From the IMG/VR virus record IMGVR_UViG_3300037847_001253, positions 1 through 29,892 of that record: DNA of 29,892 nt; one strand, given 5' to 3'. A program made the position numbers and the translations under genes. The notes beneath the pieces were generated by a model. It was not told where the DNA came from. It saw nothing but the letters and a program-made list of their open reading frames with translations, and did no database searches. Of the stretch, positions 2,204-26,771 are shown one piece after another (position 1 is the stretch's first letter; every line of letters begins with the position of its first letter). This stretch comes from a virus.

Positions 2204-4080
2204 TATCTTTTCCCATCTGGTCTAATATCTAATCTTAAATCCCCCAATCTCCAACCATAATCACTTGATGTGTTAGATATTTTTAAACTTGCTTGCCTAC
2301 TCCTAGCACGTGTGTTTACAAAAGTAGAGGCAGGAGTAATATCAAATGACCCTAAGTTTTGTTTTGCTTGCAATGGATAATCTCTACCATCTATCTTATA
2401 AGTTACTGTGTTTGTTGAACCGCTTTGATCCCTGAACTCTATATCAGGTATAAGCTGTGATATTAAAACATAATCTTCACCATCAGGATCAAGATCAAAA
2501 TCACTTGACTCTATAAATGCACTAAAGCTTGTACCATCTGCTGCGTGAGCTATCTCATGGTTGTATAGGTAGTTTAAATTAGTATCATCTAGTTTGCCTG
2601 TAGCTAATGGATATATTCTAGTTGGTGCTTCGTTCCATGCAGTTCTTGTAAAGCCATCAGCATTTGTACCAATAGTCCATGTTTGTTCTAAGTAATTGTA
2701 TATAACGTACTTATCAACTTCATTAGAACCTTCTGAACAATAAAACCATATCACTTCATTAAACTCTGGATTGCTACCACCAAACACTTTAAATGTTTGT
2801 TCATAGTTAAAATCACCAAAGATGTGATCTAATACTGTGCATGGCAATCTTTGTGCAGCACCTGTGTAAACATAAAAAGCTCCACGATCCATAAAGAATA
2901 CTTTGTTATCTGCTACGATAGCTGCGTTAGGAGATATCATAGATACACCAGAAGCAACCTCATTAAAGTTAAATATAAATGGTGCACCAACAAATCGCAT
3001 AGATATAAGTCCTGCGTCTGTAAAGATAATTATTTCTTGTCTTGTTCTAACTGCACCAACAATAGTACTGCCTAGTGATAATCTAACACCACCTGCTGAG
3101 TTAGTTGCTGTTGGTGTCCAATCTATGTTTGATTCTGATGTTGAAAATCTAACTAGTAATGGATCAAGTGTAGTAGAACCAATAGGATTACAGCCGAAAG
3201 CAATTACGTGTCTATCAATATCTGACATCATAATTTGTAAAACTTTTACAGGCGGATTGCTTGCACCACCTATAGCAGTTGCTTCTACAGCTCTTGTAGT
3301 TACACCTGCAGATTCATCCCAAACATAGTAACTTCCTAGCCTTACTGCTGCTAAAGCATCATCACCAAAGTTATCTAAGCTCCAAAGTCTTAACTGGTTA
3401 GTGTCATCAATAATAGCAACTGATCCATAAGAACCACTACCCATACTACCTGAACCCCAACCTGATGCTGGCACGTATGTATCTAGTCCTGTGTTTACTT
3501 GATATTGTGCTGTAACTGCACCACCACCATTGCCTGTGTCTGATCCGTTAGCTGCTTTTGGTGTGCCAGGATAACCAGACCCTGCAACCTTTGCAGTTAT
3601 CTTGTAAGTGTTAACATCTACAATCTCATCTATCTGATACTCTTGATTTAATACTGTACCAAATATAACACCACCTAATGATGCAGCACCTGAGTAAGTA
3701 ACAAAATCACCAGCTACTGCTTCATGTCCTGCGTCTGTTACTGTAAGTGTTGTATCTCCTGCAACTGCTGCAAAAGTAGCAGCATTAGTTGTGGTCTTTC
3801 TTATAGGTGTAATGTCGTGATATGTATTACCTTCTTGTATATACAGCTTTTGATGTGTGCCTAAAACTGTATAGTTTGTTTGTCCAATATCCCTATATGT
3901 ATGTATCTTTCGACAAGTACCTATGAAAGCATCTGTTGATTGTTTTTCCCAACCACCGATTCTTTCTGGTCTGCCTTTTCTAAATCTAACCTTATCAGCA
4001 TCAAACCAACCACCTTCATTAGAGTAGTTAGTACCTTCCTTAACAATGCCTGGTCTAAATACATACTTAGCAAGTGTCAT
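2203..4080 (-). CDS. Tail hub / packaged-DNA stabilisation protein candidate (P22 gp10-like)
   Basis: This 625-residue protein begins MTLAKYVFRPGIVKEGTNYS and has KVRFRKGRPERIGGW near residue 30. That opening is common in large beta-rich tail proteins of marine podovirus-like phages, often compared with the P22 gp10 tail hub. The rest is rich in beta strands, Gly, Ser and Thr, with no signal peptide or membrane segment. The ATG overlaps the endolysin stop by one base, and the next gene is a fibre, which fits a hub or fibre-attachment role. The P22 gp10 relation rests on my memory of the family and on the gp4-like gene elsewhere in the window. A structure comparison would be needed to call it firmly. 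Confidence 0.62.
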   Translation of the reverse strand: MTLAKYVFRPGIVKEGTNYSNEGGWFDADKVRFRKGRPERIGGWEKQSTDAFIGTCRKIHTYRDIGQTNYTVLGTHQKLYIQEGNTYHDITPIRKTTTNAATFAAVAGDTTLTVTDAGHEAVAGDFVTYSGAASLGGVIFGTVLNQEYQIDEIVDVNTYKITAKVAGSGYPGTPKAANGSDTGNGGGAVTAQYQVNTGLDTYVPASGWGSGSMGSGSYGSVAIIDDTNQLRLWSLDNFGDDALAAVRLGSYYVWDESAGVTTRAVEATAIGGASNPPVKVLQIMMSDIDRHVIAFGCNPIGSTTLDPLLVRFSTSESNIDWTPTATNSAGGVRLSLGSTIVGAVRTRQEIIIFTDAGLISMRFVGAPFIFNFNEVASGVSMISPNAAIVADNKVFFMDRGAFYVYTGAAQRLPCTVLDHIFGDFNYEQTFKVFGGSNPEFNEVIWFYCSEGSNEVDKYVIYNYLEQTWTIGTNADGFTRTAWNEAPTRIYPLATGKLDDTNLNYLYNHEIAHAADGTSFSAFIESSDFDLDPDGEDYVLISQLIPDIEFRDQSGSTNTVTYKIDGRDYPLQAKQNLGSFDITPASTFVNTRARSRQASLKISNTSSDYGWRLGDLRLDIRPDGKR

Positions 4081-4523
4081 TAAATATTACTCCAGTCCTC
4101 ACCTTCCCAGAGAATAGCTTCAGCATCACGTCTTCTGACTAAGCCTTCGCTTATTTCTCCATTTACTTTATTCCATCTTTTGATTTGACTTGGTACAAGA
4201 TGATAATCACCAGCATTAAGCAACTTTCTTAATGTGCTGTTTGCTAAATTTGTTGGACCTAAATTGTAAGTAAAAGATACCAAAGCATCAAACTGACATT
4301 GTTCTAACGGAACAGTAATGTATTTTTCTACATAACCTTCATACTCTTCTAGTTCTTCATCAAGCCATTCATCTGCTTGTTCTTGTGTACAGGTATCACC
4401 CAATGCTACGTTTTTGGTTTTTCCATACGCAATCGTAGGAACTCCAGCTTGGCACAGGTATGCTTCTAATTTGCAACCTTCAAACTTTTTAATTATTGCT
4501 TTGCCTTCTTGTGACGTTTCCAT
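4080..4523 (-). CDS. T4-type lysozyme endolysin (glycoside hydrolase 24-like)
   Basis: This 147-residue muramidase should cut the peptidoglycan glycan chain at lysis. The catalytic pattern E-x8-C-x5-T is visible as Glu15, Cys24 and Thr30 in KKFEGCKLEAYLCQAGVPT. Most relatives have Asp where Cys24 stands, and Cys at this place is a known natural variant. The family motif FDALVSFTYNLGP follows near residue 78 and RRRDAEAILW near 130. The frame is open further upstream to an ATG at 4625, but an AGGAGG six bases before the ATG at 4523 selects the shorter form. No signal peptide or anchor helix is seen, so a holin is needed for release. It overlaps the outer spanin gene by 35 bases. Confidence 0.9.
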   Translation of the reverse strand: METSQEGKAIIKKFEGCKLEAYLCQAGVPTIAYGKTKNVALGDTCTQEQADEWLDEELEEYEGYVEKYITVPLEQCQFDALVSFTYNLGPTNLANSTLRKLLNAGDYHLVPSQIKRWNKVNGEISEGLVRRRDAEAILWEGEDWSNI

Positions 4524-4881
4524 CTTCATCCTCCTCTTTATCAAGTTCTCGATAATATTCAACAACTGATAAAATTTGTTTAATATACCTTTTTTGTTCT
4601 GCTGTATTGATTGATAAGTTTTCATAGTCTTTTGTACTCAATGCATAGTATGCACGTCTTGGTGCTTTGCCTTGCTCTACTAAATCTAAATATTCTTGCA
4701 TTAGTTCTGGTGTCAGCACTTCCCAATCTACATCAACTAATTGCAGTTCCATCGGCAAGGGTGGATGAAACATTGGTGCTTGTTCTTGTATAGTAACAAT
4801 TTCTACAGGCTTTGTGCTCTGAGGCAGTAATGAACAGCCACTCACAAATATTATGCTACTCAATATTAATTTCTTCATCAT
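4489..4881 (-). CDS. Outer-membrane spanin lipoprotein candidate (Rz1-like)
   Basis: A 130-residue lipoprotein. The signal sequence MMKKLILSSIIFVSGC has a lipobox ending at Cys16, so the mature protein should be lipidated and carried to the outer membrane. The mature start is proline-rich (HPPLPMEL), followed by WEVLTPEL and a helical, acidic C-terminus. The gene starts inside the end of the upstream coiled-coil membrane protein (26-base overlap) and runs into the endolysin gene, the usual packing of Rz/Rz1 spanin pairs. It is longer than lambda Rz1, so the family match is by architecture and context. The first in-frame codon at 4884 is TTG; the ATG at 4881 is preferred. Expected role: fuse the inner and outer membranes at the last step of lysis. 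Confidence 0.72.
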   Translation of the reverse strand: MMKKLILSSIIFVSGCSLLPQSTKPVEIVTIQEQAPMFHPPLPMELQLVDVDWEVLTPELMQEYLDLVEQGKAPRRAYYALSTKDYENLSINTAEQKRYIKQILSVVEYYRELDKEEDEDGNVTRRQSNN

Positions 4882-5263
4882 CAAATTGATCTGGGTTAGT
4901 TAGTGCTATTAGTTCTTCCTTGACACGTTTAGTACCATCATTTACTCTTTTTTGTATTAACCCAGGTTTAGCCAATGCAAGTTTATCTAGGTCATGTTTT
5001 GCGAAAGTGTTACGAAGTTGGTTTACTTCTCGTAATGCTTCCTGTTTTTGCTTTTCTATTATTTGTATTTGTTGTTGTACCTTCTCTGCTTTCTCCAGAT
5101 GATTTTTGATTGATTCGTTCTGTTCTGCTATTTGTGTTTCTAAAACTATTTGATTGCCTTTAAGTGTAGATATTTCATCTAACAATCTATCTATATACCA
5201 AGCACTTGCTGCAATGCTTGACAAAAGTAAACCACCTAATATTACTGCTAACTTTGTTCCCAT
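4856..5263 (-). CDS. Inner-membrane spanin candidate (Rz-like)
   Basis: A 135-residue protein with one N-terminal membrane segment at about residues 5-23, then a long charged coiled coil from about 27 to 95 (LKGNQIVLETQIAEQNESI and onward), and an acidic tail. This is the plan of an Rz-type inner-membrane spanin whose periplasmic coil meets the outer-membrane lipoprotein. The next gene, overlapping by 26 bases, is that lipoprotein, and the endolysin follows. Its ATG overlaps the end of the upstream cyclase gene by 16 bases, so it is probably translated from the same transcript. No sequence-level family match is claimed. Confidence 0.72.
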   Translation of the reverse strand: MGTKLAVILGGLLLSSIAASAWYIDRLLDEISTLKGNQIVLETQIAEQNESIKNHLEKAEKVQQQIQIIEKQKQEALREVNQLRNTFAKHDLDKLALAKPGLIQKRVNDGTKRVKEELIALTNPDQFDDEEINIE

Positions 5264-6990
5264 GTATATACCTTAATTGCTTTGCTTTTACCTTTTACCT
5301 TAATACTTCCTAAAGATTTTAAATTATATGATGATGCTTTCATAGTGCTATCTGCTATTACTAAATTTACACCAAGCTCTTTACAGCTTGATTCCATTCT
5401 TGCTCCAAGGTTTACAGCATCACCTATGGCTGTATAATCAAAGCGTGTTGCACTTCCCATATTTCCTATCACAGCTGGTCCAGAGGATAATCCGATTCCA
5501 ATTTCAATTCCTAAGTCTGCTGCTTCTATGTCGTGTTTTATTTGAATCGCTGTTTTTATAGCAGCATCTTCGTGATTGTCTAAATCAAGTGGTGCATTAA
5601 AGATAGCCATCATTGCATCACCTATGTATTTGTCAACCATGCCACCATTAGCTTGTACTGCACTTGCCTGTATAGTAAGAGCTTTATTCATTAGCTCTGT
5701 TACTTCTTCTGGCTCTAGTCTTTCACTAAGAGATGTGAATCCTCTAACATCAGTAAATAAGAAGGTAGCATATTTTTTTTCTCCTGAAAGTTTTAAAAGG
5801 TCTGGATTATCTTGTAATCTTTTAACCTGTCGTGGATCAAGATAGTGTTCAAATTGTTTTTTGATTTGTTCACGCAACTTATATTGTTCTCTAAATCTAA
5901 AATAAAATTCTTGTGCAGATATAAGTACTGATGATAATAAAGTATAAGTTACATCAATAAGTATATTCTGTTGTATCAAATACCAACCACCATAAGCAGT
6001 CAATCCTATTGTAGTTGTTGCAGCTAAAAGGCTCTCAAGCAAACCGAAATATTTAATCGAAATATATATGACTAAAGAGATTAATATGAATATGAATATC
6101 TCGAATATTAAATGAGAGCCAGGAATCTGTGGGCTTTCGTTTATAAGCATTGATTCAGCTAGTGCTGCTTGTATCATGTGTGGGTTTTTTAATCCATCAC
6201 TTGTGCTTAACTGTGGCATTATGCCTTTAGCTGTAACCCCAACAAAAACAAACTTACCTTCAACATTCATTTCAGATAAAGTTGTTTGTGGTGTATCTAC
6301 CCAGCTAATCCATTTACGACCTACACTATCTACACTAACTGGAGGCAAGCCCTGCACAGCTATTTCTACAACGGCTGATTCTTCTGTTTTGATGATGTAC
6401 GAGTTTGCTTGTACAAGGCTCTTTAAAACTTGTGTACCAAAAGATGCTACCCACCCATCAGGTGTTTGCATCAATAAAGGTAACTGTCTTACTAATCCAT
6501 CTACATCAATAGGTGCAGAAACTACACCCTGTAATGCATTGGTTTTTAGTATATCTATATTTTCTAGAATACCTTGCAACTGAATACCATCTGCTGCTGG
6601 TCCTAAAAATATTGTTCCTTCTGTTGGTGGATATTGATTGTTATCTATTTCAGGCATAGCAATAACGCTAGGCGAATATGATAAAGCTTCTGCAAATATT
6701 TCATCTCCGCCAAACCTATCAGGTTCAGGAAACAAAATAACCCAACCAACTCCGAGTGCTCCTTTGTTTAAAAGATCAACGTGTATCTGTGCTAAGTCTT
6801 GTCTTGGAAATGGATAGCCACCACGTTTCTGTACGTCTTCATCAGTTATATTTAAAATTACAAAGTTGCCTGATGGCTCTGGTGTTTTTACAAAAGCATC
6901 AAATGTCTTTAACTTTAAAATCTCAAGTGGAGTTACTTGAAATGCTAGTGGCAAAATAAATATTGCGATGAACAATAGATATCTTTTCAT
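5248..6990 (-). CDS. CHASE2-domain membrane adenylate cyclase (class III, IIIb-like)
   Basis: A 580-residue sensor enzyme predicted to make cAMP from ATP. An N-terminal hydrophobic helix (4-18) leads into a periplasmic CHASE2 region (about 20-290) with FVILNITDEDVQKRGGYPFPR and FVFVGVTAKG. Three membrane segments follow at about 293-315, 318-340 and 343-360, then a linker helix and the cyclase domain (403-575). Key residues are present: metal-binding Asp414 (FTDVRGF) and Asp458 (GDAMM), purine-selecting Lys454 and Thr520, and transition-state Asn527 and Arg531 (AVNLGAR). The Lys/Thr pair is typical of class IIIb adenylate rather than guanylate cyclases. The gene overlaps the FecR gene stop by one base and the spanin start by 16 bases. 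Bacteria often pair FecR with CHASE2-cyclases; finding both in a phage late operon is unusual. The catalytic domain looks intact. Confidence 0.93.
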   Translation of the reverse strand: MKRYLLFIAIFILPLAFQVTPLEILKLKTFDAFVKTPEPSGNFVILNITDEDVQKRGGYPFPRQDLAQIHVDLLNKGALGVGWVILFPEPDRFGGDEIFAEALSYSPSVIAMPEIDNNQYPPTEGTIFLGPAADGIQLQGILENIDILKTNALQGVVSAPIDVDGLVRQLPLLMQTPDGWVASFGTQVLKSLVQANSYIIKTEESAVVEIAVQGLPPVSVDSVGRKWISWVDTPQTTLSEMNVEGKFVFVGVTAKGIMPQLSTSDGLKNPHMIQAALAESMLINESPQIPGSHLIFEIFIFILISLVIYISIKYFGLLESLLAATTTIGLTAYGGWYLIQQNILIDVTYTLLSSVLISAQEFYFRFREQYKLREQIKKQFEHYLDPRQVKRLQDNPDLLKLSGEKKYATFLFTDVRGFTSLSERLEPEEVTELMNKALTIQASAVQANGGMVDKYIGDAMMAIFNAPLDLDNHEDAAIKTAIQIKHDIEAADLGIEIGIGLSSGPAVIGNMGSATRFDYTAIGDAVNLGARMESSCKELGVNLVIADSTMKASSYNLKSLGSIKVKGKSKAIKVYTWEQS

Positions 6991-8081
6991 TAACCTTGAG
7001 TAATCCTAATTACTGATGATGATCCATTATTTATGGTTATGCTTTTAGATACACCATCTTGTACAATTATTACGCTGTATGCTTGATCTGCACTAAGTAC
7101 TAAATTTACATACTGATTTACGTTTCTAATAATATTTATTTGGTCGCCTTGTAAGATTGTTGTAATCTGTGTTTCAAGGTCTTGTCCTAGTTTTGTACCG
7201 CTTATAGGTATGCCACCCACAAACTGTGCAAGCTCATCTTCTTCTTCCTCTACACCTAGCTCATCTATAACATCTAACAAATCTTCTAGAAAGTTTACAT
7301 TTAAATAATCTATATCAAGTTCTGTAAACTCAAAGTCTGGGTCTTCTTCTAATAAATCTTCAGCTAAATAATCTATATCTAAATCTGTAAACTCTAGATA
7401 ATCATTTTGATTATTTGCTTCTTCTTCTTGAACTAATGCTTCTTCTTTAGGTGGTGAAACAATTAACATATTGTCTATCATGTCTAATGTAATATCTAAA
7501 GTAAGTGGGCTTGTAGGATTAGATTCATATAAGCTTGTTGTTGTTGCTTGATATGGTTTGTCTAATACTACAGAACCTGTAGCAGTAGATACAACTATCT
7601 CTCCACTAGATATGCCATCTATATCTGGCAATAGTATTATTAGTGATCGCCCTAATTCATCAACAGTAACTGTAAAGTCTGTACCTCTAATAGCTATATC
7701 AGCTGTTGGTGTTTTAAGAGAAATATTTTTTTTGTCTATTTTATTTAAGGCACTACTGACAAAACGTATTGTGCCACTAGCAAACTTCAAAGCCATCTTT
7801 GAGTTACTAGGATTAGGATCAAATATATATTCGTCAATTACTAATTTAGAATGTTCAGTTAGTCTTACTATGCTGTCATCTAAAAAAGTTATTGCTATTC
7901 TGCCTTTAGCAGTACGAACATTATCGTATAAGTTTAAGTCAAAATCTAAAGTAGCATCATAAGGCTTATCCCTTACAACCTGCCCATAACCATTTAACTC
8001 TGTTATATCTCCTATAGTATCAGCATGAAGTGGACATACCACCATCATTTTGAATAATACAGATATTATTATTCGATCCAT
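6990..8081 (-). CDS. FecR-domain periplasmic protein with acidic repeat linker
   Basis: This 363-residue protein has an N-terminal signal sequence (MDRIIISVLFKMMVVCPLHA, likely cut near residue 20). A FecR domain follows at about 48-180, with LYDNVRTAKGRIAITFLDDS, LTEHSKLVIDEYIFDP, ASGTIRFVS and TPTADIAIRGTDFTV. No membrane helix follows, so it should be periplasmic or exported. Residues 215-285 form a very acidic linker holding two near-identical units, FTDLDIDYL (231-239) and FTELDIDYL (252-260), 21 residues apart. The C-terminus is Gln/Asn-rich and ends NNGSSSVIRITQG. The start overlaps the curlin-like gene by 62 bases, and the stop overlaps the cyclase ATG. FecR domains act in envelope signalling; here the likely partner is the CHASE2 sensor next door. 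An ATG at 8048 is a less likely start because it would cut into the signal sequence. Confidence 0.87.
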   Translation of the reverse strand: MDRIIISVLFKMMVVCPLHADTIGDITELNGYGQVVRDKPYDATLDFDLNLYDNVRTAKGRIAITFLDDSIVRLTEHSKLVIDEYIFDPNPSNSKMALKFASGTIRFVSSALNKIDKKNISLKTPTADIAIRGTDFTVTVDELGRSLIILLPDIDGISSGEIVVSTATGSVVLDKPYQATTTSLYESNPTSPLTLDITLDMIDNMLIVSPPKEEALVQEEEANNQNDYLEFTDLDIDYLAEDLLEEDPDFEFTELDIDYLNVNFLEDLLDVIDELGVEEEEDELAQFVGGIPISGTKLGQDLETQITTILQGDQINIIRNVNQYVNLVLSADQAYSVIIVQDGVSKSITINNGSSSVIRITQG

Positions 8082-8748
8082 TACTTGTAATCTTTAACCA
8101 ATCTTGTGCAAGAGTACTTGCTTGTGTAATGTTAAATGTATTGCTTGAACCATCTAGATCAAGATAAAAATATCCTGAGTCTGAGGCTGACACTCCACTA
8201 TAACCACTACCAGAAAATGTAATAGAGTTAGAACTACCATTCACATCTACATAGTTTGTAGCATTAGAATAATTGATGTCAAAATCAAATTCGTTTGAAT
8301 CACCAAGAATGATCCAGTCTAAATCTAAATAATCTGCTTCTGCACTATTTGCAATATCTAATGTAAATTCGTTACTTGAACCTGTTACATCTACATTAAG
8401 GTTTGCATAGTCACTTACATTCAATCCTGTTGTATCAAAATCAATATCAAAAACGTTTGAATCACCAGTAAAATCAAATGTCCCTGTAAAGTTAGAACCT
8501 AAAATACCACCAGTAATAAACTTGTTTGATGAACCAATTTGATTAAGATCAAGCGTCATGGTGCTTCCATTTAAAATAGCTGATGTCATTGTGCCAAAGA
8601 TTGCTTCTGTGCCACCAATTAAATTAGAAGAACCAAGCTGCTCAATATCAATACTAGCATTACTACCAGTTTGTTGCACATAGATTTCATTATCAGCATT
8701 AAGATAAATAGAAACTAAAAATATAATTGTTATTAGTTTATTCTTCAT
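8020..8748 (-). CDS. Curlin-like secreted repeat protein
   Basis: A 242-residue protein with a signal sequence (MKNKLITIIFLVSIYLNA) and about nine repeats that centre on a G-[SD]-[SN]-N turn: near residues 28, 39, 72, 95, 123, 149, 171, 200 and 224. Spacing is about 11-33 residues. The first and third repeats keep a curlin look (YVQQTGSN, IEQLGSSN, LNQIGSSN). Later ones alternate hydrophobic residues with Asp (FDIDF, LDLDW, FDFDI) in place of the Gln/Asn ladder. It should form a beta-solenoid or amyloid-like fibre. It follows the CsgG-like gene with an 11-base overlap, which suggests it is the exported substrate. The frame extends to a TTG at 8769, but the ATG at 8748 gives a proper signal peptide. 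Two Cys lie near the C-terminus (230, 242). Homology to CsgA/CsgB is by repeat style and context, not close identity. Confidence 0.75.
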   Translation of the reverse strand: MKNKLITIIFLVSIYLNADNEIYVQQTGSNASIDIEQLGSSNLIGGTEAIFGTMTSAILNGSTMTLDLNQIGSSNKFITGGILGSNFTGTFDFTGDSNVFDIDFDTTGLNVSDYANLNVDVTGSSNEFTLDIANSAEADYLDLDWIILGDSNEFDFDINYSNATNYVDVNGSSNSITFSGSGYSGVSASDSGYFYLDLDGSSNTFNITQASTLAQDWLKITSNGSNNNICIIQNDGGMSTSC

Positions 8749-9586
8749 ATTTCCAATATCCTTTTTCAAAACCTAAGTTTATTAAATTAACAATAGATGT
8801 TTCTATTGCTGCCTGCAAAGCTATTGATTTACTTTCATTCATTGCATTACCTGTTTCAAATTCTACTAATCTTGTATAGTCATCTACATATCTAAACAAA
8901 TCACTATTCAATGCAACAGACAATATAGTTTTAGATGATAGATTTTCTAAAAGAATCTCTCCTGTGCTTACAGAAACAATTCTCAAAGAAACTACTACTG
9001 TATCTTCTCTATATTGTTTTGAGTTACCAATGCCTAAATATCTAGCACCAATACCTCCAGATAATAAATTTGTGTTGTAATCAACAACATTGCCTTCAAC
9101 TATCAAACCAGCAAACAACAAAGGTACTTGCTCAGTTTCATCGTCAAACCTTTCTCTAGTAGAACGTATTATCTGACGTTCTCTAGTAATATGATCTAAT
9201 CCTATTCGTTCTACAACTCTAAAAAATTCTGATTGTTTTAATGCACGTATTAAATAATTTTCTGGTGCTTGTGTAAGTGCTGTAGAAAAATTTGCGTAAC
9301 CATCTACACTTTTTCTTTGTCCTGTCATATCTGTAAACCTATAGACAGCTACAACAGGTTTCTTATAAAAATCTAATGGCTCTACTTCTTTTATTGCTTT
9401 TGTGACTGGTTGATCTATTCTTGCTTCTTGTGAATAACATTGTGCTTCAGAAATAATCGTAACTACATCTTTATAGTCTTCTTGTGGGTTTCCTAAACAT
9501 GGTGATAGATACTGCCAATTAGATGCACAACTACTGACCAAAGCCAAAGTCACCGATAGGGATAGTAATTTCTGTAGTAGTTTCAT
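8738..9586 (-). CDS. csgG: CsgG-like outer-membrane curli secretion pore lipoprotein
   Basis: A 282-residue lipoprotein of about the usual CsgG length, with a lipobox LVSSC ending at Cys20. CsgG forms a ring-shaped outer-membrane channel that exports unfolded curli subunits. Matching segments include VVAVYRFTDMTGQ (78-90), YANFSTALTQAP (97-108), GGIGARYLGIG (177-187), STGEILLENLSSKTILS (207-223) and AIETSIVNLIN (260-270). Asn99 and Phe100 stand where the CsgG constriction has Asn and Phe; the constriction Tyr seems shifted or replaced. The stretch between the lipid Cys and the core is longer than in E. coli and carries Cys30 and Cys50. The C-terminus ends soon after GFEKGYW and is shorter than in E. 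coli. The gene overlaps the CsgF-like gene by 56 bases and the curlin-like gene by 11. Confidence 0.93.
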   Translation of the reverse strand: MKLLQKLLSLSVTLALVSSCASNWQYLSPCLGNPQEDYKDVVTIISEAQCYSQEARIDQPVTKAIKEVEPLDFYKKPVVAVYRFTDMTGQRKSVDGYANFSTALTQAPENYLIRALKQSEFFRVVERIGLDHITRERQIIRSTRERFDDETEQVPLLFAGLIVEGNVVDYNTNLLSGGIGARYLGIGNSKQYREDTVVVSLRIVSVSTGEILLENLSSKTILSVALNSDLFRYVDDYTRLVEFETGNAMNESKSIALQAAIETSIVNLINLGFEKGYWKYEE

Positions 9587-10004
9587 CTAGTGTGTTGTAT
9601 ATAGTTAATGTAATGCTTGTGCCATCGCTGGTCCATGTAATAATATTATCAAACAATTCAAATGAACCTGACTCTGCTGGATTTTCTCCAAACAACTGTT
9701 CAACTAATTGTCTTGATAGCTGTGCAAAAATACGTGATTCAAAGTTACGTATAAATCTTGCAAGTGTTGTGTTCTCAGCATCTCTTTCTAATTCATCTTT
9801 CAAAGCTTGTATCTCAGCTTCTAATGCTTCACGTCTAGTAAATTCTTGGTTTTCTATAGTCAAGTAGTGTGCTGATGTACCTACTCCACTAAAAGAAGGG
9901 CTTTTGAATTTGAATGAAAGTTCATCCGAACTTACGGGATACGAAAAAATTATTAAAAAATATACTGTGTTAAATCCAAAAACCCTAGTCTTTTCTTTGA
10001 TCAT
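9531..10004 (-). CDS. csgF: CsgF-like curli assembly factor
   Basis: A 157-residue exported protein. A signal sequence covers about residues 1-26, and the mature start DELSFKFKSPSFSGVG resembles the FRNPNFGG start of CsgF, the part that plugs into the CsgG pore. A charged helix with possible coil spans about 54-105, followed by a beta-rich end (IITWTSDGTSITLTIYN, TTTEITIPI), the same order as in CsgF. In E. coli, CsgF sits outside the cell on CsgG and couples export to nucleation. The order csgF then csgG matches enterobacterial csgDEFG, but no csgD or csgE is present nearby. The gene overlaps its upstream neighbour by 20 bases and CsgG by 56. The helical region is longer than I would expect for E. 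coli CsgF. Confidence 0.86.
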   Translation of the reverse strand: MIKEKTRVFGFNTVYFLIIFSYPVSSDELSFKFKSPSFSGVGTSAHYLTIENQEFTRREALEAEIQALKDELERDAENTTLARFIRNFESRIFAQLSRQLVEQLFGENPAESGSFELFDNIITWTSDGTSITLTIYNTLDETTTEITIPIGDFGFGQ

Positions 10005-10335
10005 CTCTATCTGCCTTCGCTATTTTATTACTATCTATTAATTGTGGCACACCTAATATAGTTTTTATAAGTGTGTCCTGACGAATTATTTCGTTGTCTA
10101 AGCTACGAATCCTATCAATGAGTGCTACTAGTATGCCATGTTGAGAATCAAGCTTTGTACCTAATCTCTCTTCCATCTGTGTAATAGCAGCATTTACTTT
10201 ATCATCAACAGTATCAAGCTTAGTTTCCATGCCATCAATAATACGCATGATTAGTTTCCAAACAAAAAAACCTAAACCTATTGCTGCAGCTATTGGAAAG
10301 CCCAGCTCAGTTATAAGTCTTATTGCATCATCCAT
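9985..10335 (-). CDS. Small membrane protein with coiled coil (holin-like candidate)
   Basis: A 116-residue protein with one membrane segment near the N-terminus (LGFPIAAAIGLGFFVWKLIM, about 11-31) and then a charged helical coil to about residue 90 (METKLDTVDDKVNAAITQMEERL). It has no signal-peptidase site and would be a single-pass inner-membrane protein. I recall similar proteins in marine phage lysis regions but cannot name a function. It overlaps the nuclease gene by eight bases and the CsgF-like gene by 20. It could be a holin, an antiholin or a membrane anchor. Note that it directly precedes the curli block. Confidence 0.6.
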   Translation of the reverse strand: MDDAIRLITELGFPIAAAIGLGFFVWKLIMRIIDGMETKLDTVDDKVNAAITQMEERLGTKLDSQHGILVALIDRIRSLDNEIIRQDTLIKTILGVPQLIDSNKIAKADRDDQRKD

Positions 10336-10753
10336 CTTCTGGTATGAACAGTCCTTGCTCGATTAATCGTTGTCTGTTGTTCATGTGTTCTTCTTCTACG
10401 TCAGCTTTGCTTTGACCAAAGTAATAAACACATAGATTTTTTTGAACCATAGCTTCATTAATGTTTGTGCCATCAACTATAAGTTCTCCTAAAACTCTGC
10501 CATATTTGCCCTTAGAATCTTTAAGTTTTGTTCTTATTTGAATAAGTTCGCCCTCTTCTACCATAGTTTGAACAAATCCAGCAGCCATTCTACCTCTAGC
10601 TTTTTCATCTTTATTTCTTGTTCTGCACTCTGGTGTGTCTATTCCATATAAACGTACACGACATTTATGCAAAATATTAAAACCTAAATCTAAAGTAACA
10701 TCGATAGTATCGCCATCAACAACTCTATCTACTGTACAACTATACTCATACAT
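10328..10753 (-). CDS. Staphylococcal nuclease-like (thermonuclease family) endonuclease
   Basis: A 141-residue protein covering one SNase OB-fold domain. The motifs are VVDGDTIDV (11-19), RLYGIDTPE (34-42) and KGKYGRVLG (81-89). They supply the calcium-binding Asp residues (Asp13, Asp39), Thr40, and the catalytic Arg34, Glu42 and Arg86 in positions equivalent to Arg35, Glu43 and Arg87 of S. aureus nuclease. No signal peptide is seen, so it should act in the cytoplasm, for example in breaking host DNA or trimming nucleic acid late in infection. It lies between small basic proteins and a small membrane protein, with short overlaps on both sides. Confidence 0.92.
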   Translation of the reverse strand: MYEYSCTVDRVVDGDTIDVTLDLGFNILHKCRVRLYGIDTPECRTRNKDEKARGRMAAGFVQTMVEEGELIQIRTKLKDSKGKYGRVLGELIVDGTNINEAMVQKNLCVYYFGQSKADVEEEHMNNRQRLIEQGLFIPEDG

Positions 10754-11798: not shown

Positions 11799-12101
11799 TT
11801 ATAGTGAATTGATATCAAAATCCATATTAACAGATACATCTGTTGGGTTTTCTACTTTATCTTTGGCTCTATAAAAAGTTTTCTGAAAAACCTTTTGTGG
11901 ATATAGTGCTTCTATTTCTTCCTTTGTCCAATTTGCTAATGGTTTATTTGGTCCTTGTATGGCACAGTTATATACAAATGGATATGTTTTTTGAAACTCA
12001 CCTAGACGAGTTGATCCAGAGTATTTGCCTTCAAGCTCCCAAAAAATTACATTGTTTGTTGCATTATCAATATGCGGTATTGCTTTTTCTAAAACGAACA
12101 T
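11799..12101 (-). CDS. Unknown protein downstream of tail fibre
   Basis: A 100-residue soluble protein, MFVLEKAIPHIDNATNNVIF onward, with NWTKEEIEALYP in its second half. The ATG at 12101 shares a base with the fibre stop and has AAGGAG eight bases upstream; the TTG three bases earlier is rejected. Genes in this position are sometimes fibre assembly chaperones or fibre-bound proteins, but I see no family signature, so the role is open. Confidence 0.62.
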   Translation of the reverse strand: MFVLEKAIPHIDNATNNVIFWELEGKYSGSTRLGEFQKTYPFVYNCAIQGPNKPLANWTKEEIEALYPQKVFQKTFYRAKDKVENPTDVSVNMDFDINSL

Positions 12102-14743
12102 CAAATCATCTCCTTAAGACTTTTAACTTCATCTGACAGTTCTTGTATTGCTTTTACTAATACTGGTAATAATTTAGCATAAGACGCTTCTAATCTATCA
12201 GGATCAGCTTTTAAAACTAAGTCTAAATAATCTGACATATCAAAATCATTTTGTACCTCATCTAACTCTTGAGCAATAAAACCTATGTCTTTTTTACCTG
12301 GCATAGAGCCATCTCTTCTATTCCAATCAAACTGTACTGGTCTTAAATTATTTACAAAGTCCATACCAATAGATAGATTCTCAACATTATCTTTATCTCT
12401 CATATCAGATAATGATGATATTGTTGTTACATTACATCTTAGGGCAGTAATGTTAGAGTCACCCAATGTGATCTGATTACTGATAGATGTTGAAGATGGT
12501 TCAGCATTGTAACCAATAACTGTATTGTTAGAACCTGTTAAGTGTGCATCAGCAGCACGATAACCTAAGAAAGTATTATTAGCTCCTGTTGTTAATAATT
12601 TACCAGACTCAAAACCTATAGCTGTATTGTTAGCTCCATTACTTTTATTTAATGAATATGAACCTATAGCAGTATTTTCATCAGCTCCAGCAAAAGCATC
12701 ACCTAATGCAAGATATCCTAAAGCAGTAGCATCATCAACATTAAAACCTGAACCGCCAGTAACATAGTCTAATGAATCATCTCCTTTACCAGCACGCTGA
12801 CCAACAAAAGTATTTCTAAAGTTTACATCAGTATTTCTACCAGAACTCATACCAATAAAACAATTATAAGTATCTGTTCTTGATCCTGTTGAGGACACTC
12901 CTAACATATAACCAGCAGCATCTCCAATACAAATGTTAAAGCTGTAATCATTGCCAGCTAACATAGTGCTGACACCCATACACATATTAATTAAACCTAC
13001 ATCTCCACCATAAGCACCAGCACCTATTCCTACGTTCTGTCCTAATGATCCATCGTGTGAAAGTCCACAAAATGCACCAACAAATGTGTTAAAACTAGAA
13101 GTTGTATTACAACCAGAAAGCGGACCTATAAAAGTATTTCTTTGTGCGTCTGTACATAACTCACCAGTTTGTTGACCTATATGAGTATTGTATTTACCTG
13201 TAGTCAGTAACCTACCACTTCTATGACCTATGATTGTATTTAAGCCACCAGAAGTTAAAGACATACCTGTGAAGTTTCCTATAGAAATGTTATAGCTATC
13301 ATCTGTTAATAATGAATAACTTGCATTACCACCAGTACCATCGCCAGTATCTAAAGCATTAGCTAAGACAGGATTACCAAGACTATCTGTTGCTGTAAAA
13401 GTAAATGTATTGCCTTGATCACCACCTGGTAAAGAAGTAATAGTGTGATCTTTATTACTAAATACTGTAGCTGATCCACATAAAACTTCTGCATTAATGT
13501 TACCACCAAGATCAGGCTGACCTATACCGCCTACACGATTACCATAAATTTTAAATTGTTGACCAACTTTAATGCCACGCATTTCACAAGTAAGTCCTGA
13601 TATTTGCATAGTAACTGTTATGGTTGAACTACCATTTACAGCTCCTAATGCAAAGTTACTTGATTCACCAAAAATTAAACCTGTTGCACCAGTTTGAGCT
13701 ACATCCATAGATTTGTAACCTATAGCTATAAGATCACTTTGTGTTGTATTGGCTTGCAATGTTTCTGAACCAATAGCAATGTTTCTTGCTCCTGTGGTAT
13801 TACTTTCTAATGTATAAGTTCCTAGACCTGTATTATTGCTTCCTAAATTTGCTTCTAAACAATGAAAACCTACAGCTGTGTTTTGTTCCCCTGTAACATT
13901 AAGTGCTAGTGTTTGTGTGCCAACACCTGTGTTGTATTGTCCTGTTGTATTTGCTGTAAGTGATCCACCACCAAAAGCACAGTTACCTATGACTGTATTA
14001 TTTTCTAAAGCATTTGCACCTACAGCTGTACTTGCTGATCCACTAGTTGATGACTTAAGTGCTCTATAACCAATAGCAACTGAATATAAATTAGAACCAG
14101 TAAATGCATTACCAGCTTCAAAGCCAACAACAACATTACCTGTTCCTACTGGATGTGATCCATCTAATTTTATTGTTCCGCCAGATACATCTAAATTACC
14201 AGACAAGGTTAAAGCTGTAATAGCTGACGAACCACCTAGTGCTGCTCCATCTATAGTTCCGCCATCTATGTTTGCAGAAGTTGCATTTAAAGAAGCAAAC
14301 GTTCCAGAGCCTATTGATATACCATCAAAAGAATCTTTTACATTTGCACCAGCACCAATACCATCTGTATATATAGCTTTGTTATCACCATTAGCAATCG
14401 TAACTGTTGTACCGCTTCCTTGCTTAATAGTAATAGATTGACCACCAGTTGTAGCATTTTCTATGATCCAAAATTTAGAGACTGTGTTTGGACCTAGTGT
14501 TACTTCTCTTGTAGCAGTTAAAGCTACACCTGAAGTAATTTTTAAGTGCATTGATCTAACTTGATCTGATACACCATCAGCCATAGTAAATGTAGTGTTT
14601 GAGTCTGCTGACATATTTTTAGTGCCATAGCCTAGAGACTGACCAATTAACTCTAAGTTAACATTAGTCGATGCACCCCAAGTGCCTGACTCATCACCAG
14701 TATTTATTTCTTTTAATCTTAAGTTGTTTAAAAAAGTTGCCAT
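12101..14743 (-). CDS. Tail fibre with C-terminal S74 intramolecular chaperone
   Basis: An 880-residue fibre. The N-terminus (MATFLNNLRLKEINTGDESG) looks like a virion-attachment part. The middle (about 200-770) carries many short units of the form NTxxGxxxL or NTAIGxxS, such as NTAVGFHCLEAN, NTFIGPLSG and NTVIGYNAE, which suggests a trimeric beta-helix shaft. The end (from about 779) is an S74 domain: SDMRDKDNV with Ser779 and Lys784, five residues apart as in the known Ser-Lys cleavage dyad, then NLRPVQFDWN, DIGFIAQELDEV and a final coiled coil (LVKAIQELSDEVKSLKEMI). The chaperone helps trimer folding and then cuts itself off before Ser779. Role: host receptor binding. Confidence 0.9.
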   Translation of the reverse strand: MATFLNNLRLKEINTGDESGTWGASTNVNLELIGQSLGYGTKNMSADSNTTFTMADGVSDQVRSMHLKITSGVALTATREVTLGPNTVSKFWIIENATTGGQSITIKQGSGTTVTIANGDNKAIYTDGIGAGANVKDSFDGISIGSGTFASLNATSANIDGGTIDGAALGGSSAITALTLSGNLDVSGGTIKLDGSHPVGTGNVVVGFEAGNAFTGSNLYSVAIGYRALKSSTSGSASTAVGANALENNTVIGNCAFGGGSLTANTTGQYNTGVGTQTLALNVTGEQNTAVGFHCLEANLGSNNTGLGTYTLESNTTGARNIAIGSETLQANTTQSDLIAIGYKSMDVAQTGATGLIFGESSNFALGAVNGSSTITVTMQISGLTCEMRGIKVGQQFKIYGNRVGGIGQPDLGGNINAEVLCGSATVFSNKDHTITSLPGGDQGNTFTFTATDSLGNPVLANALDTGDGTGGNASYSLLTDDSYNISIGNFTGMSLTSGGLNTIIGHRSGRLLTTGKYNTHIGQQTGELCTDAQRNTFIGPLSGCNTTSSFNTFVGAFCGLSHDGSLGQNVGIGAGAYGGDVGLINMCMGVSTMLAGNDYSFNICIGDAAGYMLGVSSTGSRTDTYNCFIGMSSGRNTDVNFRNTFVGQRAGKGDDSLDYVTGGSGFNVDDATALGYLALGDAFAGADENTAIGSYSLNKSNGANNTAIGFESGKLLTTGANNTFLGYRAADAHLTGSNNTVIGYNAEPSSTSISNQITLGDSNITALRCNVTTISSLSDMRDKDNVENLSIGMDFVNNLRPVQFDWNRRDGSMPGKKDIGFIAQELDEVQNDFDMSDYLDLVLKADPDRLEASYAKLLPVLVKAIQELSDEVKSLKEMI

Positions 14744-18934: not shown

Positions 18935-19068
18935 TATTCTTCCTCTACCTCAAATGTTTTATCGCCAGACACACTATTTATTTTATCTCTTGCTGCGTCA
19001 GCATTTGCTACTGATTCATCTAATACTAGTCTGCCTCTACTATCATAAACTTTTACTAAATATGCCAT
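18934..19068 (-). CDS. Tiny partner protein of the paralogue array
   Basis: A 44-residue protein, MAYLVKVYDSRGRLVLDESV then ANADAARDKINSVSGDKTFE and VEEE. Start and stop each share a base with neighbouring genes. It resembles the tiny proteins at 21141-21269 and 22090-22224 in layout: a KVYD/KIYE strand, an Ala-rich helix and an acidic end. Each of these follows one of the large paralogues, so it may cap or modify it. Confidence 0.66.
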   Translation of the reverse strand: MAYLVKVYDSRGRLVLDESVANADAARDKINSVSGDKTFEVEEE

Positions 19069-19997
19069 TAAAAACTCCCTTTTGGTTTTTCTGCAGACAA
19101 CATGAGATAGTCTATATCTAGACTATAAGCTGATGCTACAGTATTGTTTTGTATTGCTACTACCAATGATAGTCCACCTGTTGATGGTGATACCAATGGA
19201 AATATGGAAGAACTATTCCATTTCATAAAACTTGATATAGAACCACCTGGGTATAAATTTCTACCAACTTGTGCTTTTTCACTATTAATAACTTGATTGT
19301 CATAATAGAACTGAAATACTCTAGCTCCACCACTTGAACCCTGTTGTTGCAGACTATTACCTTTACCATGTTCTGAACGTTTGTAAGCAAATGATAATGT
19401 GTGATATTCGCCATCACCTATCTGCCCTGATCCTGAACCCATAAATGGTGGCACAAGAGCAGGATCACTTGAAATTCTGCCTGATATTCCTGGATTACCC
19501 ATAACAAAACCCATATCTGTTTTACCAGCTGCCATTATTGCTTGTGTACCAAAATGTAAAAATGGTGTACTAGCTGCTGGATCAATTAAGCCAAAAACAA
19601 CTAATGCTTTTGTAGCAGCATCATCATTATGTAACTTGAATCTAACTTTACCAAAAAGATCAGTTTCTTCATCTGGTGCATTTAGTGGATCAGCTCCTGA
19701 AGACAAAGCTCCAAAAGGTGCTGTTGCACTACCAGTATCTCCTGCATAATACAAAGCTGTATAGTTAGAAGCTCCACCTGCTGTAGTTAATCTTAAGACA
19801 CCATTCTTTTCACCATTAACAATAGCAGCAGTTCCGCCACCACTTTGTTTCACTTGATATCTATTGGCGTGCAATGTATCAAAGTCATCAAAAAGTATTT
19901 GATTTGCACAATCCCATTCTTTTTTAATCCAATCTGAGCTTGGTAATTCAGATGAATTAGCTACGTTTGTAAATCCTTTATTAAAATTTGTTGCCAT
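19068..19997 (-). CDS. Virion/adhesin-like paralogue 4
   Basis: A 309-residue protein, the most divergent of four related genes. Shared marks are an F-x-K-G-F/N opening (NFNKGFTNVANSSELPSSDW), a D-D-F-D segment with R-Y-x-V after it (LFDDFDTLHANRYQVKQSGG), GVLRLTTAGGASNYTALYY and a closing DIDYLMLSAEKP. Strands such as FGKVRFKLHND and HTLSFAYKR suggest a lectin-like beta sandwich. No signal peptide is present. I infer a virion surface or fibre-related role because the array follows the capsid gene, but no family was recognised. Confidence 0.68.
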   Translation of the reverse strand: MATNFNKGFTNVANSSELPSSDWIKKEWDCANQILFDDFDTLHANRYQVKQSGGGTAAIVNGEKNGVLRLTTAGGASNYTALYYAGDTGSATAPFGALSSGADPLNAPDEETDLFGKVRFKLHNDDAATKALVVFGLIDPAASTPFLHFGTQAIMAAGKTDMGFVMGNPGISGRISSDPALVPPFMGSGSGQIGDGEYHTLSFAYKRSEHGKGNSLQQQGSSGGARVFQFYYDNQVINSEKAQVGRNLYPGGSISSFMKWNSSSIFPLVSPSTGGLSLVVAIQNNTVASAYSLDIDYLMLSAEKPKGSF

Positions 19998-20965
19998 TAT
20001 CTCTCCTGTATTATTGTAAAGCTATCAACAATTAACTTACATTGATTGCCTGCATTAGTATGGTTTCCTAAGAATATACATGGAGTCATCAAACCTGTTG
20101 GCACATTAGCTGCTGGTCTTGGTTGACCGCCAGCTTGGTCGACAGATGTAATGTACCAGTTGTTTTTGCCTGGTCCTTTGATTTGTCCTGAAATATCATT
20201 GTGATATGCACTTAATAATGGTGCTCTCAAGTTTAATATATCAGGATAACTTGAACTCCAAAATCCGCTTACACTTTTTGTTGCACCACCCATTCTATCG
20301 CCTGCACTTCTTAAACCTCTATTCTCTCTGTAAGCTAAATGTAAACTTATATCTTTGTTTACATCAATATCAGTTGTTGGTGATTCACCACCATTACCTA
20401 CTGTCATAAAAGGAGTTGTGGTATTCTGGCAAATATGCATAAAGAAATTGCCAAGAAATGCTGTATTAATATAAGACCAACACATAAAACCATAAGAATC
20501 CTGTACAGGTCCTGCATTGTCTGCAACCATTGCATCAAAATTAGCTGAGTCAGCTAAACCTAACCAAACCTTTGTATTCTTTAAAGTTGCACCAGTTCCT
20601 TCAATTCTAAACTTAGCTTGTACTGCTAAATACTTATCAGGTCTTAATTCAAAACTATTTATACCTGTTGTACCACCAGCATCACCTTTAAGCGATAAAG
20701 CAACAAGATCACCTGCAGCATTGTCAGTTGTCAGCTCTAATGCTCCACCTCTAACATTTTTTATTGCTGCTGTACTTGAAGCTCCGCCTGTTTCTACCTT
20801 TCTTACTTTCCATTGATTTACATCAAAGTCTGTAAAGTCATTGTGATAAACAATGTAATCTGATGGATTACAACCTATAGGCAAGCCTGCAAAGACTGAA
20901 TCTCTTTCAGAGTTATTAAGACCATTGGGAAAGTTTGCACCTCTTTTATTTACTGCATTACTCAC
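19997..20965 (-). CDS. Virion/adhesin-like paralogue 3
   Basis: A 322-residue member of the same set. It starts at a GTG that overlaps the upstream TGA, and no ATG lies near. Shared marks: ANFPNGLNNSERDSVFAGLP opening, YHNDFTDFDVNQWKVRKVE, ALELTTDNAAGDLVALSLKG and LIVDSFTIIQER at the end. Internal strands (YLAVQAKFRIEG, KVWLGLADS) again look like a lectin-type sandwich. It abuts paralogue 4 with a one-base overlap and no tiny gene between. Function unknown; a virion role is inferred. Confidence 0.7.
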   Translation of the reverse strand: MSNAVNKRGANFPNGLNNSERDSVFAGLPIGCNPSDYIVYHNDFTDFDVNQWKVRKVETGGASSTAAIKNVRGGALELTTDNAAGDLVALSLKGDAGGTTGINSFELRPDKYLAVQAKFRIEGTGATLKNTKVWLGLADSANFDAMVADNAGPVQDSYGFMCWSYINTAFLGNFFMHICQNTTTPFMTVGNGGESPTTDIDVNKDISLHLAYRENRGLRSAGDRMGGATKSVSGFWSSSYPDILNLRAPLLSAYHNDISGQIKGPGKNNWYITSVDQAGGQPRPAANVPTGLMTPCIFLGNHTNAGNQCKLIVDSFTIIQER

Positions 20966-21141
20966 GATACATTCTCCTTACCAAATTCACAAAACTTTCT
21001 TTCGTCTTGTACTTTTACTTTTATAGCTTGCACCCAAGCAACTAGACCAGCATCATCAAGATCAAATGATTGTGTATTTACAATTTCTCTTTGACCACCT
21101 GGTTTAAAATTTATTTCTTTTAAAACATATTTAAGTGCCAT
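20962..21141 (-). CDS. Tiny protein in the paralogue array
   Basis: A 59-residue protein, MALKYVLKEINFKPGGQREI then VNTQSFDLDDAGLVAWVQAI and a basic/acidic end. It starts on the stop of the tiny gene upstream and its TGA overlaps the GTG of paralogue 3. It does not look like the KVYD-type tiny proteins. No family recognised. Confidence 0.65.
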   Translation of the reverse strand: MALKYVLKEINFKPGGQREIVNTQSFDLDDAGLVAWVQAIKVKVQDERKFCEFGKENVS

Positions 21142-21269
21142 TATTCTTCTCCTTTTGAAAAGCCAATACTTTTAACTTCGCCTTGTTGTGCAAGCCATGC
21201 TTCTAAAGCAGCTTGATCTGCAAACTCTTCATTTATAGATTTGCCATTTAATTCATATACTTTAAACAT
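21141..21269 (-). CDS. Tiny partner protein of the paralogue array
   Basis: A 42-residue protein, MFKVYELNGKSINEEFADQA then ALEAWLAQQGEVKSIGFSKG and EE. It has the same layout as the other tiny partners: a KVYE strand, an Ala-rich helix, then a short strand and acidic end. The start shares a base with the stop of paralogue 2. Function unknown. Confidence 0.66.
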   Translation of the reverse strand: MFKVYELNGKSINEEFADQAALEAWLAQQGEVKSIGFSKGEE

Positions 21270-22087
21270 TATGACCTTCCTTTACTTTCTTGACCTACCC
21301 AAATGTAATCTACAGACATTGAGTTGGTTGCTGTGTTTAAATTTTTAATTTGCAATGTTGGTGTCATACCATGTGTTTCTCTAGGTAATAATGATAATAA
21401 ACCTAAAGGATCACTTAGATTTAATCTTCTTCTTGCAAAAAGAATATCGTTTATATATGCAGATAAGCTTTTCTCTTTTGCGTTCCATACGATAGATATA
21501 TTAAAGAACTCATCATTAGCTATGTTTGCACTAGCAAATGCATCATTGTTGCCTTCAAAGTTTCCGCCATTATCAAAGTTTGAAAATACAAACAAAGGAT
21601 AAGAACCAATCAATGAATCAAAGAAAAATCCTAAACTATCTTTAGAATCAAATACACCTAAACTAGTGTCAGGAGTATTAAGTCCTATAAATGCTTCAAT
21701 GTTAGAACTACTAATATCACTAAATTTTAGTCTGCAATCAAACCACAAGCTTTCTGATAAATTAAAAAAGAAAGAACCATTGCTTCCACTATTATTGCCA
21801 AGCTGAATATTTACTTGATCACTTGCTGCATTATCATTGGTAATTTTTAAAACACCACCGCTACCATCAACAGGTAATAAGCTTGCAGCTCCTGAACCTG
21901 CTTCTACTTTAGTTATTGTCCAATCATCAATATCATATGCTAGAAAATCTTCAAAGTAAGAATGTTGTTTGTAAGGTACTAAATGACCTAACATTCTGCC
22001 AATAATATCGTTACGATCTGAATCGTTTACTCCTTTTGAAAAATGTACGTTACCAATTTTTCTGGATGCTCTTAAATAATCTGCCAT
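21269..22087 (-). CDS. Virion/adhesin-like paralogue 2
   Basis: A 272-residue member of the set, clearly related to paralogue 3. Marks: NVHFSKGVNDSDRNDIIGRM, SYFEDFLAYDIDDWTITKVE, AGSGAA, GGVLKITNDNAASDQVNIQL and SVDYIWVGQ near the end. The pieces LWFDCRLKFSD, EAFIGLNTPD and NISIVWNAKEKSLSAYINDI are typical of a concanavalin-like sandwich, though this is from pattern only. A GAGGAG ribosome site sits before the ATG. Function unknown; a virion role is inferred from location. Confidence 0.72.
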   Translation of the reverse strand: MADYLRASRKIGNVHFSKGVNDSDRNDIIGRMLGHLVPYKQHSYFEDFLAYDIDDWTITKVEAGSGAASLLPVDGSGGVLKITNDNAASDQVNIQLGNNSGSNGSFFFNLSESLWFDCRLKFSDISSSNIEAFIGLNTPDTSLGVFDSKDSLGFFFDSLIGSYPLFVFSNFDNGGNFEGNNDAFASANIANDEFFNISIVWNAKEKSLSAYINDILFARRRLNLSDPLGLLSLLPRETHGMTPTLQIKNLNTATNSMSVDYIWVGQESKGRS

Positions 22088-22089
22088 GT

Positions 22090-22224
22090 TTACTCCTCAA
22101 CCACCACTTCTACGCCAGCACCTTCATCAGTTATTTCTTTTATCTTAGCTTCTGCTGTGCTTTGATTTGAAGTTGTTAATACTAATTCTTTTGAATCGCC
22201 TACTTCATAAATTTTTATAGCCAT
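22090..22224 (-). CDS. Tiny partner protein of the paralogue array
   Basis: A 44-residue protein, MAIKIYEVGDSKELVLTTSN then QSTAEAKIKEITDEGAGVEV and VVEE. The start shares a base with the stop of paralogue 1 and its last codons supply the GAGGAG site of paralogue 2. It has the strand-helix-strand layout and acidic end of the other tiny partners. Confidence 0.66.
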   Translation of the reverse strand: MAIKIYEVGDSKELVLTTSNQSTAEAKIKEITDEGAGVEVVVEE

Positions 22225-26406: not shown

Positions 26407-26771
26407 ACTGCTCTGTTAACTCCTTTAGGGTCTTCGACTACACCTTCGATAGTGTCGTCATTAACAATACGAAACTCCTGCCCATAAACATCTATTCTTG
26501 TTCCTGAGTATGGTCTTATGATTACCCAATCGCCAGCTTTACACCAAGGACCAGAAGGGAATCTACTTTTATCTGCATAAGCATCAGCACCAAGCTCTAG
26601 GACTTTACCAATAACTGTGGCAACTTCCTCTTTCTTCTTGCTCTCTGATGTGTATTTGATTATGCCACCCTCAGTCTTTTCTTCGACCTGTGGAATAGCA
26701 ATTAGTATTCTATAACCTTGTGGTTGTGGTATTGACTTAGCTCTCTTCTCAGCACTAATTTTATCTGTCAT
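26403..26771 (-). CDS. GroES-like co-chaperonin
   Basis: A 122-residue Cpn10-like protein. PQGYRILIAIPQVEEKTEGG opens the fold; EGGII (34-38) stands where GroES has its mobile-loop GGIV contact to GroEL. VATVIGKVLELGADAY and AGDWVIIRPYSGTRI follow, as in the GroES core (VVAVGKG, VGDIVIF). Phages such as T4 make their own co-chaperonin (gp31) to fold the capsid protein with host GroEL, and this gene lies three genes before the capsid. Length is longer than GroES (97), with a disordered start of about 15 residues and an acidic end. Confidence 0.86.
   Translation of the reverse strand: MTDKISAEKRAKSIPQPQGYRILIAIPQVEEKTEGGIIKYTSESKKKEEVATVIGKVLELGADAYADKSRFPSGPWCKAGDWVIIRPYSGTRIDVYGQEFRIVNDDTIEGVVEDPKGVNRAV

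Follow-up and report, generated by a model that had tools for sequence, protein, structure and literature searches.

A six-gene curli-type secretion module with FecR and CHASE2 cyclase genes in a marine phage

Why does a phage carry, directly beside its lysis genes, the pore proteins of curli export together with proteins of envelope signalling? The question is raised by a 29,892-base stretch of viral DNA (the window), which is the entire IMG/VR virus record IMGVR_UViG_3300037847_001253. The original prediction, made from the letters of the window, had described a block of five genes and proposed that their products form a line from the cell surface through the periplasm to cytoplasmic cyclic AMP (cAMP). 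We find that this block is a further instance of the type VIII (curli) secretion module known from marine phages and that it comprises six genes, in the order HKsm-CsgF-CsgG-CurA-FecR-CHASE2 cyclase.

A conserved block of six genes

The genes of the module are as follows; fractions give the presence of a gene in the phage loci surveyed.

9985..10335, minus strand: HKsm, small inner-membrane protein, module gene 1 (phrog_18771)
9531..10004, minus strand: CsgF (PF10614, 1.4e-13; phrog_35372); 95/95 loci
8738..9586, minus strand: CsgG, outer-membrane lipoprotein export pore (PF03783, 2.6e-48; lipobox LVSSC in the sequence)
8020..8748, minus strand: CurA, secreted curlin-repeat protein, presumed fibre subunit (PF07012 at family level); 94/94 loci
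6990..8081, minus strand: FecR-domain protein (PF04773, 1.3e-10); 89/89 loci
5248..6990, minus strand: CHASE2 class III adenylate cyclase (PF05226, 3.9e-27; PF00211, Guanylate_cyc, 8.7e-20); 71/74 loci

We confirmed the five open reading frames of the original prediction at these coordinates, and their families were borne out by Pfam or family-level matches, with the hits for CsgF, CsgG, FecR, CHASE2 and Guanylate_cyc all above the curated cut-offs. The overlaps of 56, 11, 62 and 1 bases between the five genes were reproduced exactly, the second of them using the ATG at position 8748 for the curlin-like gene. The five-gene boundary did not hold, as HKsm is an obligate sixth member.

Gene order and strand were preserved without exception among 102 CsgG-bearing loci, a sample that leans towards close relatives of the window and rests on searches covering the best 80 matches. 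All module genes are under purifying selection, with ratios of nonsynonymous to synonymous substitution (dN/dS) of 0.01–0.33. The predicted linkage of several envelope genes is thus upheld, and the invariant arrangement and purifying selection rule out a chance cluster or a decaying block. The module was seen on several phage backbones, including those of the T4-like phages HTVC008M and Melnitz.

The supposed novelty of combining a curlin substrate, a FecR protein and a cyclase proved mistaken, because Wittmers et al. (2022; PMC9599517) had already reported the module. They described it as HK-CsgF-CsgG-CsgA/B-FecR-AC in nine podophages of the HTVC023P type and in myophages resembling HTVC008M, with one or two 'histidine kinases' first and often a second curlin, a worldwide distribution and expression detected in metatranscriptomes. 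CsgF and CsgG had also been noted in pelagimyophages in 2020 (PMC7029224) and in Melnitz in 2022 (PMC9004378). The capsid protein of the window is approximately 60% identical to those of HTVC023P and HTVC027P, and 70% identical to that of Synechococcus phage MinM2, identifying the window as a relative of the HTVC023P-type podophages. What we add is the sixth gene, doubt about its kinase label, natural variants that lack the cyclase, exchange of the block at its genomic slot and two separate bacterial source systems.

The layout in HTVC008M (KC465899) and Melnitz (MZ577097) resembles that of the window, with small upstream gene(s), CsgF, CsgG, curlin, FecR and CHASE2 cyclase on the same strand. 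Both phages differ in carrying two small upstream genes and an extra curlin between FecR and the cyclase, whereas the window has a single gene of either kind. Marine phages carry the module widely, phages of SAR11 and OM43 bacteria among them; these hosts are themselves said to be without curli (PMC9599517, PMC9004378).

The proteins of the module and their bacterial counterparts

HKsm was present in 90/90 CsgG loci with enough upstream DNA, and in a separate search anchored on HKsm, curli genes came next in 79/79 visible cases. Among 50,697 phage records it was restricted to curli phages. The protein is 93–116 residues long, or about 80–116 across aligned homologues, and consists of a single N-terminal transmembrane segment (GFPIAAAIGLGFFV) and a coiled coil. 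HTVC008M has two copies, both phrog_18771, which fits the published description of one or sometimes two kinases; HKsm is therefore very probably what Wittmers et al. labelled 'histidine kinase'. None of 21 homologues scanned with Pfam and NCBIfam matched a kinase family, and there is no invariant histidine (39/66). These two results speak against HKsm as a kinase, and the label given in that paper was very probably assigned in error. Other Pfam families gave nothing significant either, a YvrJ match included, and holin families gave only weak matches (phrog_1296, 0.0016; phrog_4898, 0.008).

CsgG aligns to Escherichia coli CsgG structures (3e-45) over residues 76–280, the pore domain. CurA of the window, taken alone, scores below the Pfam cut-off for PF07012 (E = 0.015); at the level of the family, the curlin repeat was found in 26/36 homologues (best 8.6e-6), and a profile of phage CurA recovered bacterial curlins that adjoin csgG (2.7e-8). 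An AlphaFold2 (AF2) model of CurA is regular and all-beta (mean predicted local distance difference test score 81.8), and the protein is predicted to be a beta-solenoid. A Foldseek search with the model gave no significant match, and the neighbours found by VIA-align were generic beta-helices only. The AF2 alignments left out the HTVC008M and Melnitz rows. In a distance-correlation test, CsgG and CurA were the most strongly co-varying pair of the module (r 0.91, partial 0.69), as would be expected of a pore and its substrate.

These results bear on an earlier proposal that the pore works inward. CsgG acting without CsgE would admit larger nutrients to the periplasm (PMC7029224, PMC9599517), with FecR and cAMP tuning host metabolism. 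We identified no CsgE-like gene in the module, and the match of CsgG to its E. coli counterpart covers the whole pore domain, both in keeping with such a role. Yet uptake would leave unexplained the CsgF and the conserved curlin protein found in every locus, and the co-variation of CsgG with CurA favours export. We therefore consider an uptake pore very doubtful.

The FecR protein consists of a signal-peptide-like N-terminus, a signalling fold at residues ~20–210, an acidic linker and a short C-terminal beta region, with disorder predicted by AF2 in the acidic middle part. Its fold resembles the cell-surface-signalling domain of PupR (Z 15.9 over 137 residues) and, more weakly, the cell-surface anchoring domain 5ix9 (Z 6.8); a FecR profile found no match among PDB sequences. 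The phage protein thus shares a periplasmic signalling fold with the FecR/PupR anti-sigma regulators. It differs from them in its signal-peptide-like start and in that no cytoplasmic anti-sigma domain was found: the FecR domain begins ~20–50 residues past the start codon, with no other Pfam domain ahead of it. Neither a sigma factor nor a TonB-dependent transducer was seen in the window. All 31 matches of the curlin-repeat model to FecR proteins fell within the last 60 residues and none exceeded 4.1 bits, so that a curlin-like tail on FecR is only a lead.

The last protein of the module has an N-terminal transmembrane segment, a periplasmic CHASE2 domain, further transmembrane segment(s) and a cytoplasmic cyclase; CHASE2 spans residues 11–306, and hydrophobic segments lie at 4–22 and 294–324. 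It matches class III cyclases in the PDB (3.7e-27) and has the residues that define the class, namely the metal-binding aspartates D414 and D458, the transition-state arginine R531 and the adenine-specifying lysine K454, all four unchanged in 30 homologues. The type of catalytic domain varies between phages; because the catalytic residues are invariant despite this variation, cyclase activity appears to be under selection. In a group of loci (L154, L132 and L141; L026 and L063; L142) the catalytic domain has apparently been swapped for other class III types next to a similar CHASE2 part.

FecR was found without a cyclase in seven loci, and among the CsgG loci examined we saw no cyclase without FecR. 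The cyclase is thus not supported as an essential end point of the line to cAMP. The presence of FecR in every locus, together with an optional cyclase, suggests that FecR serves the pore first.

Bacterial genomes keep the two halves of the module apart. Their csg operons resemble the phage arrangement in that CsgF and CsgG are adjacent and curlin-repeat proteins lie close by, but FecR, CHASE2-cyclase and HKsm occurred in 0/25 bacterial curli loci within ~9.5 kb on either side. Conversely, CsgG, CsgF and HKsm were missing from all 80 loci around the CHASE2-cyclases of bacteria nearest to the phage ones, whereas in 18/80 an open frame for FecR lay no more than 700 bases away (in 13 of them on the same strand). 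A FecR-domain gene next to a CHASE2 cyclase is a feature shared with the phage. Given curli loci without FecR or cyclase, and CHASE2-cyclases without curli, the phage module joins two bacterial systems. In bacteria, the FecR partners often exceed phage FecR in size by a wide margin, with open frames of 1,000–2,900 residues, suggesting that FecR domains on large surface proteins may serve as cyclase partners in bacteria. Frames of 1,200–2,900 residues are common near the CHASE2-cyclases of L168, L170, L184, L187, L195, L216 and other bacterial loci.

Published work offers parallels for a signalling arm of this kind. In Campylobacterota clusters, FecR proteins adjoin CHASE2-cyclases (PMC9239204). 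In Sinorhizobium meliloti, the outer-membrane barrel NsrA acts upstream of CHASE2 cyclases in CyaK/CyaD signalling (PMC7529298, PMC13001267), the outer-membrane partner there being NsrA and not CsgG; a plasmid-borne CyaD1 without CHASE2 produces cAMP constitutively (PMC5498481). The FecR/CHASE2 and NsrA cases give a line from the surface to cAMP real precedent by analogy, short of demonstration, and such a line from outer membrane through periplasm to cAMP is plausible in the phage.

An exchangeable slot beside the lysis genes

The module is bordered by the following genes.

10328..10753, minus strand: SNase-like nuclease, upstream flank (PF00565, 5.9e-14)
4856..5263, minus strand: Rz-like i-spanin, downstream flank (phrog_739, 1.7e-11), overlapping the cyclase gene by 16 bases
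4489..4884, minus strand: Rz1-like o-spanin, a lipoprotein, downstream flank (phrog_812, 1.8e-18)
4080..4625, with the start probably at ~4529, minus strand: endolysin, a phage lysozyme, downstream flank (PF00959, 4e-45)

The spanins named as the downstream flank in the original prediction were confirmed, along with an endolysin; the 'phage membrane protein' given as the upstream flank is part of the block itself. Between 11234 and 2203 gene follows gene without a gap, which ties the block physically to the nuclease upstream and to the spanin, endolysin and virion-protein genes downstream.

The nuclease occurs in relatives whether they carry the module or not, and forms the left border of an exchangeable slot. 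Among 28 relatives in which the interval from the nuclease to the virion protein was visible, 13 had the full module, two had it without the cyclase, two had HKsm only, ten had a different block and one had something else. The module is gained or lost as a block. In two contigs that keep HKsm (L115 and L119), the stretch from CsgF to FecR is cleanly absent in comparison with L118 (L115:1858-2741), a state that represents either a natural deletion or a stage before insertion. These two are perhaps one population, as they are 99.95% identical over the stretch. The module is thus partly absent from close relatives, an outcome that had been named as evidence against a linked system if accompanied by decay. 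What we found in place of decay is clean cassette exchange.

The alternative block encodes an Asn-rich repeat protein of ~373 residues, an acidic protein of ~745 residues and a small transmembrane/coiled-coil protein. It lies at L097:3988-7666, recurs in L093, L099, L100, L120, L122, L126, L127, L140 and L156, and was found on ~100 viral contigs; curli-module genes were present in 0/80 of its loci within the DNA fetched. Both larger proteins start with signal-peptide-like sequences. Neither secreted protein belongs to a significant Pfam family, and the ~745-residue protein had no match in 50,697 phage records. An occupant with two secreted proteins and a transmembrane/coiled-coil protein would fit a slot for surface structures.

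The neighbourhood of the module lends itself to a role in lysis, as proposed for Melnitz by Buchholz et al. (2022; PMC9004378): the CsgG/CsgF pore and a holin-like HKsm would permeabilise the envelope and help to time lysis, with curlin and cyclase secondary. The block indeed sits between, and is coupled to, the nuclease and the spanin/endolysin genes in the window and in related phages, and HKsm is holin-like in size and transmembrane segment, if only weakly matched to holin families. But HTVC008M and Melnitz, unlike the window, have no annotated lysis gene in the ~20 kb around the module, which makes lysis timing less likely and does not support it as a general function. In addition, the alternative occupant of the slot lacks a recognised pore, the ever-present curlin gene would be superfluous for a pore-only role, and some relatives (L097, L115) have a separate holin-like gene next to the endolysin. 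A lysis device is, in our judgement, unlikely.

The same slot exchange is relevant to superinfection exclusion, an idea raised in PMC9599517. Here, the fibre or pore would alter the cell surface and block adsorption of competitors, while cAMP would remodel expression of the host surface. The products are predicted to be surface-exposed, and a swap with another secreted block fits competition between phages. Against this, coupling to the lysis genes implies late expression in the backbone of the window, which would be late for exclusion, and we regard this explanation as improbable.

A surface fibre with an optional cAMP arm

In the reading that we favour, a curlin-like fibre would be exported to the cell surface late in infection, and an arm from periplasm to cAMP would be optional; we give this full six-gene mechanism a probability of roughly 0.5. 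Translational coupling would join expression of the module to that of the nuclease, spanin and endolysin genes in a single string, from which we infer late expression. CsgG would form a nonameric outer-membrane pore with CsgF seated on top, and CurA would pass through it and build a fibre of the beta-solenoid type on the surface of the infected cell. As a soluble periplasmic protein, FecR would work on the periplasmic face of the pore, perhaps replacing the missing CsgE, and would present the state of the pore or substrate to the CHASE2 domain. Most of these phages, though not all, have the cyclase, which would convert this signal into cytoplasmic cAMP for a host receptor to read. The fibre itself would probably bring the main benefit, through aggregation or capture of neighbouring hosts or through masking of the surface, with cAMP as an optional control arm.

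Several observations weigh against this mechanism. For no phage copy do the papers considered here report a fibre, aggregation, signalling or cAMP production, and Melnitz cultures showed no clumping under the conditions used (Buchholz et al., 2022; PMC9004378). Since FecR persists in the seven loci without a cyclase, its role cannot be solely to drive cAMP synthesis. Its putative part as a CsgE substitute is suggested by position and fold, and its C-terminus was modelled with low confidence. Recombination and neighbourhood are confounders of any co-variation along the module; the distance correlation between FecR and CHASE2 (0.68–0.78) is inseparable from the effect of physical neighbourhood. 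Finally, no cyclic nucleotide-binding match was found in 16 phage records (15 with the module; some are fragments), which speaks against a phage-encoded cAMP receptor and is the reason for proposing a host one.

A more elaborate version is conceivable, and we hold it only tentatively. Curli export and the FecR/CHASE2 sensor would here form one fused device, in which FecR gates CsgG in place of CsgE and tells the cyclase what state the pore or substrate is in, while the FecR tail docks on curlin. The device would occupy a slot dedicated to surface fibres, where it is exchanged as a cassette with an unrelated, secreted Asn-rich fibre system.

If a late surface fibre is indeed made, phages would remodel host-cell contact in the plankton. 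If the FecR-cyclase arm operates, phages would encode an envelope sensor of a rare kind, one that produces a host second messenger. The six-gene set with a first gene that is no kinase, the natural variants without the cyclase or without CsgF to FecR, and the unrelated cassette that replaces the module in otherwise similar phages offer testable handles.

Other features of the window were noted in passing. The record is classed as linear, and the window is therefore probably a piece of a larger phage genome. A GroES-like co-chaperonin gene (Cpn10, E = 1.4e-9) lies at 26403-26771 on the minus strand, between capsid-region genes and the portal. The minus-strand gene at 12101-14743 encodes a protein resembling a tail spike, in which NTAIG/GxNNT repeats are numerous and a Peptidase_S74 chaperone forms the C-terminus. 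At 19068-23171, also on the minus strand, four adjacent genes encode proteins of 272–322 residues with similar-looking starts, two of them weakly alike (E = 7e-4), and this set may represent virion decoration proteins that arose as paralogues and diverged.

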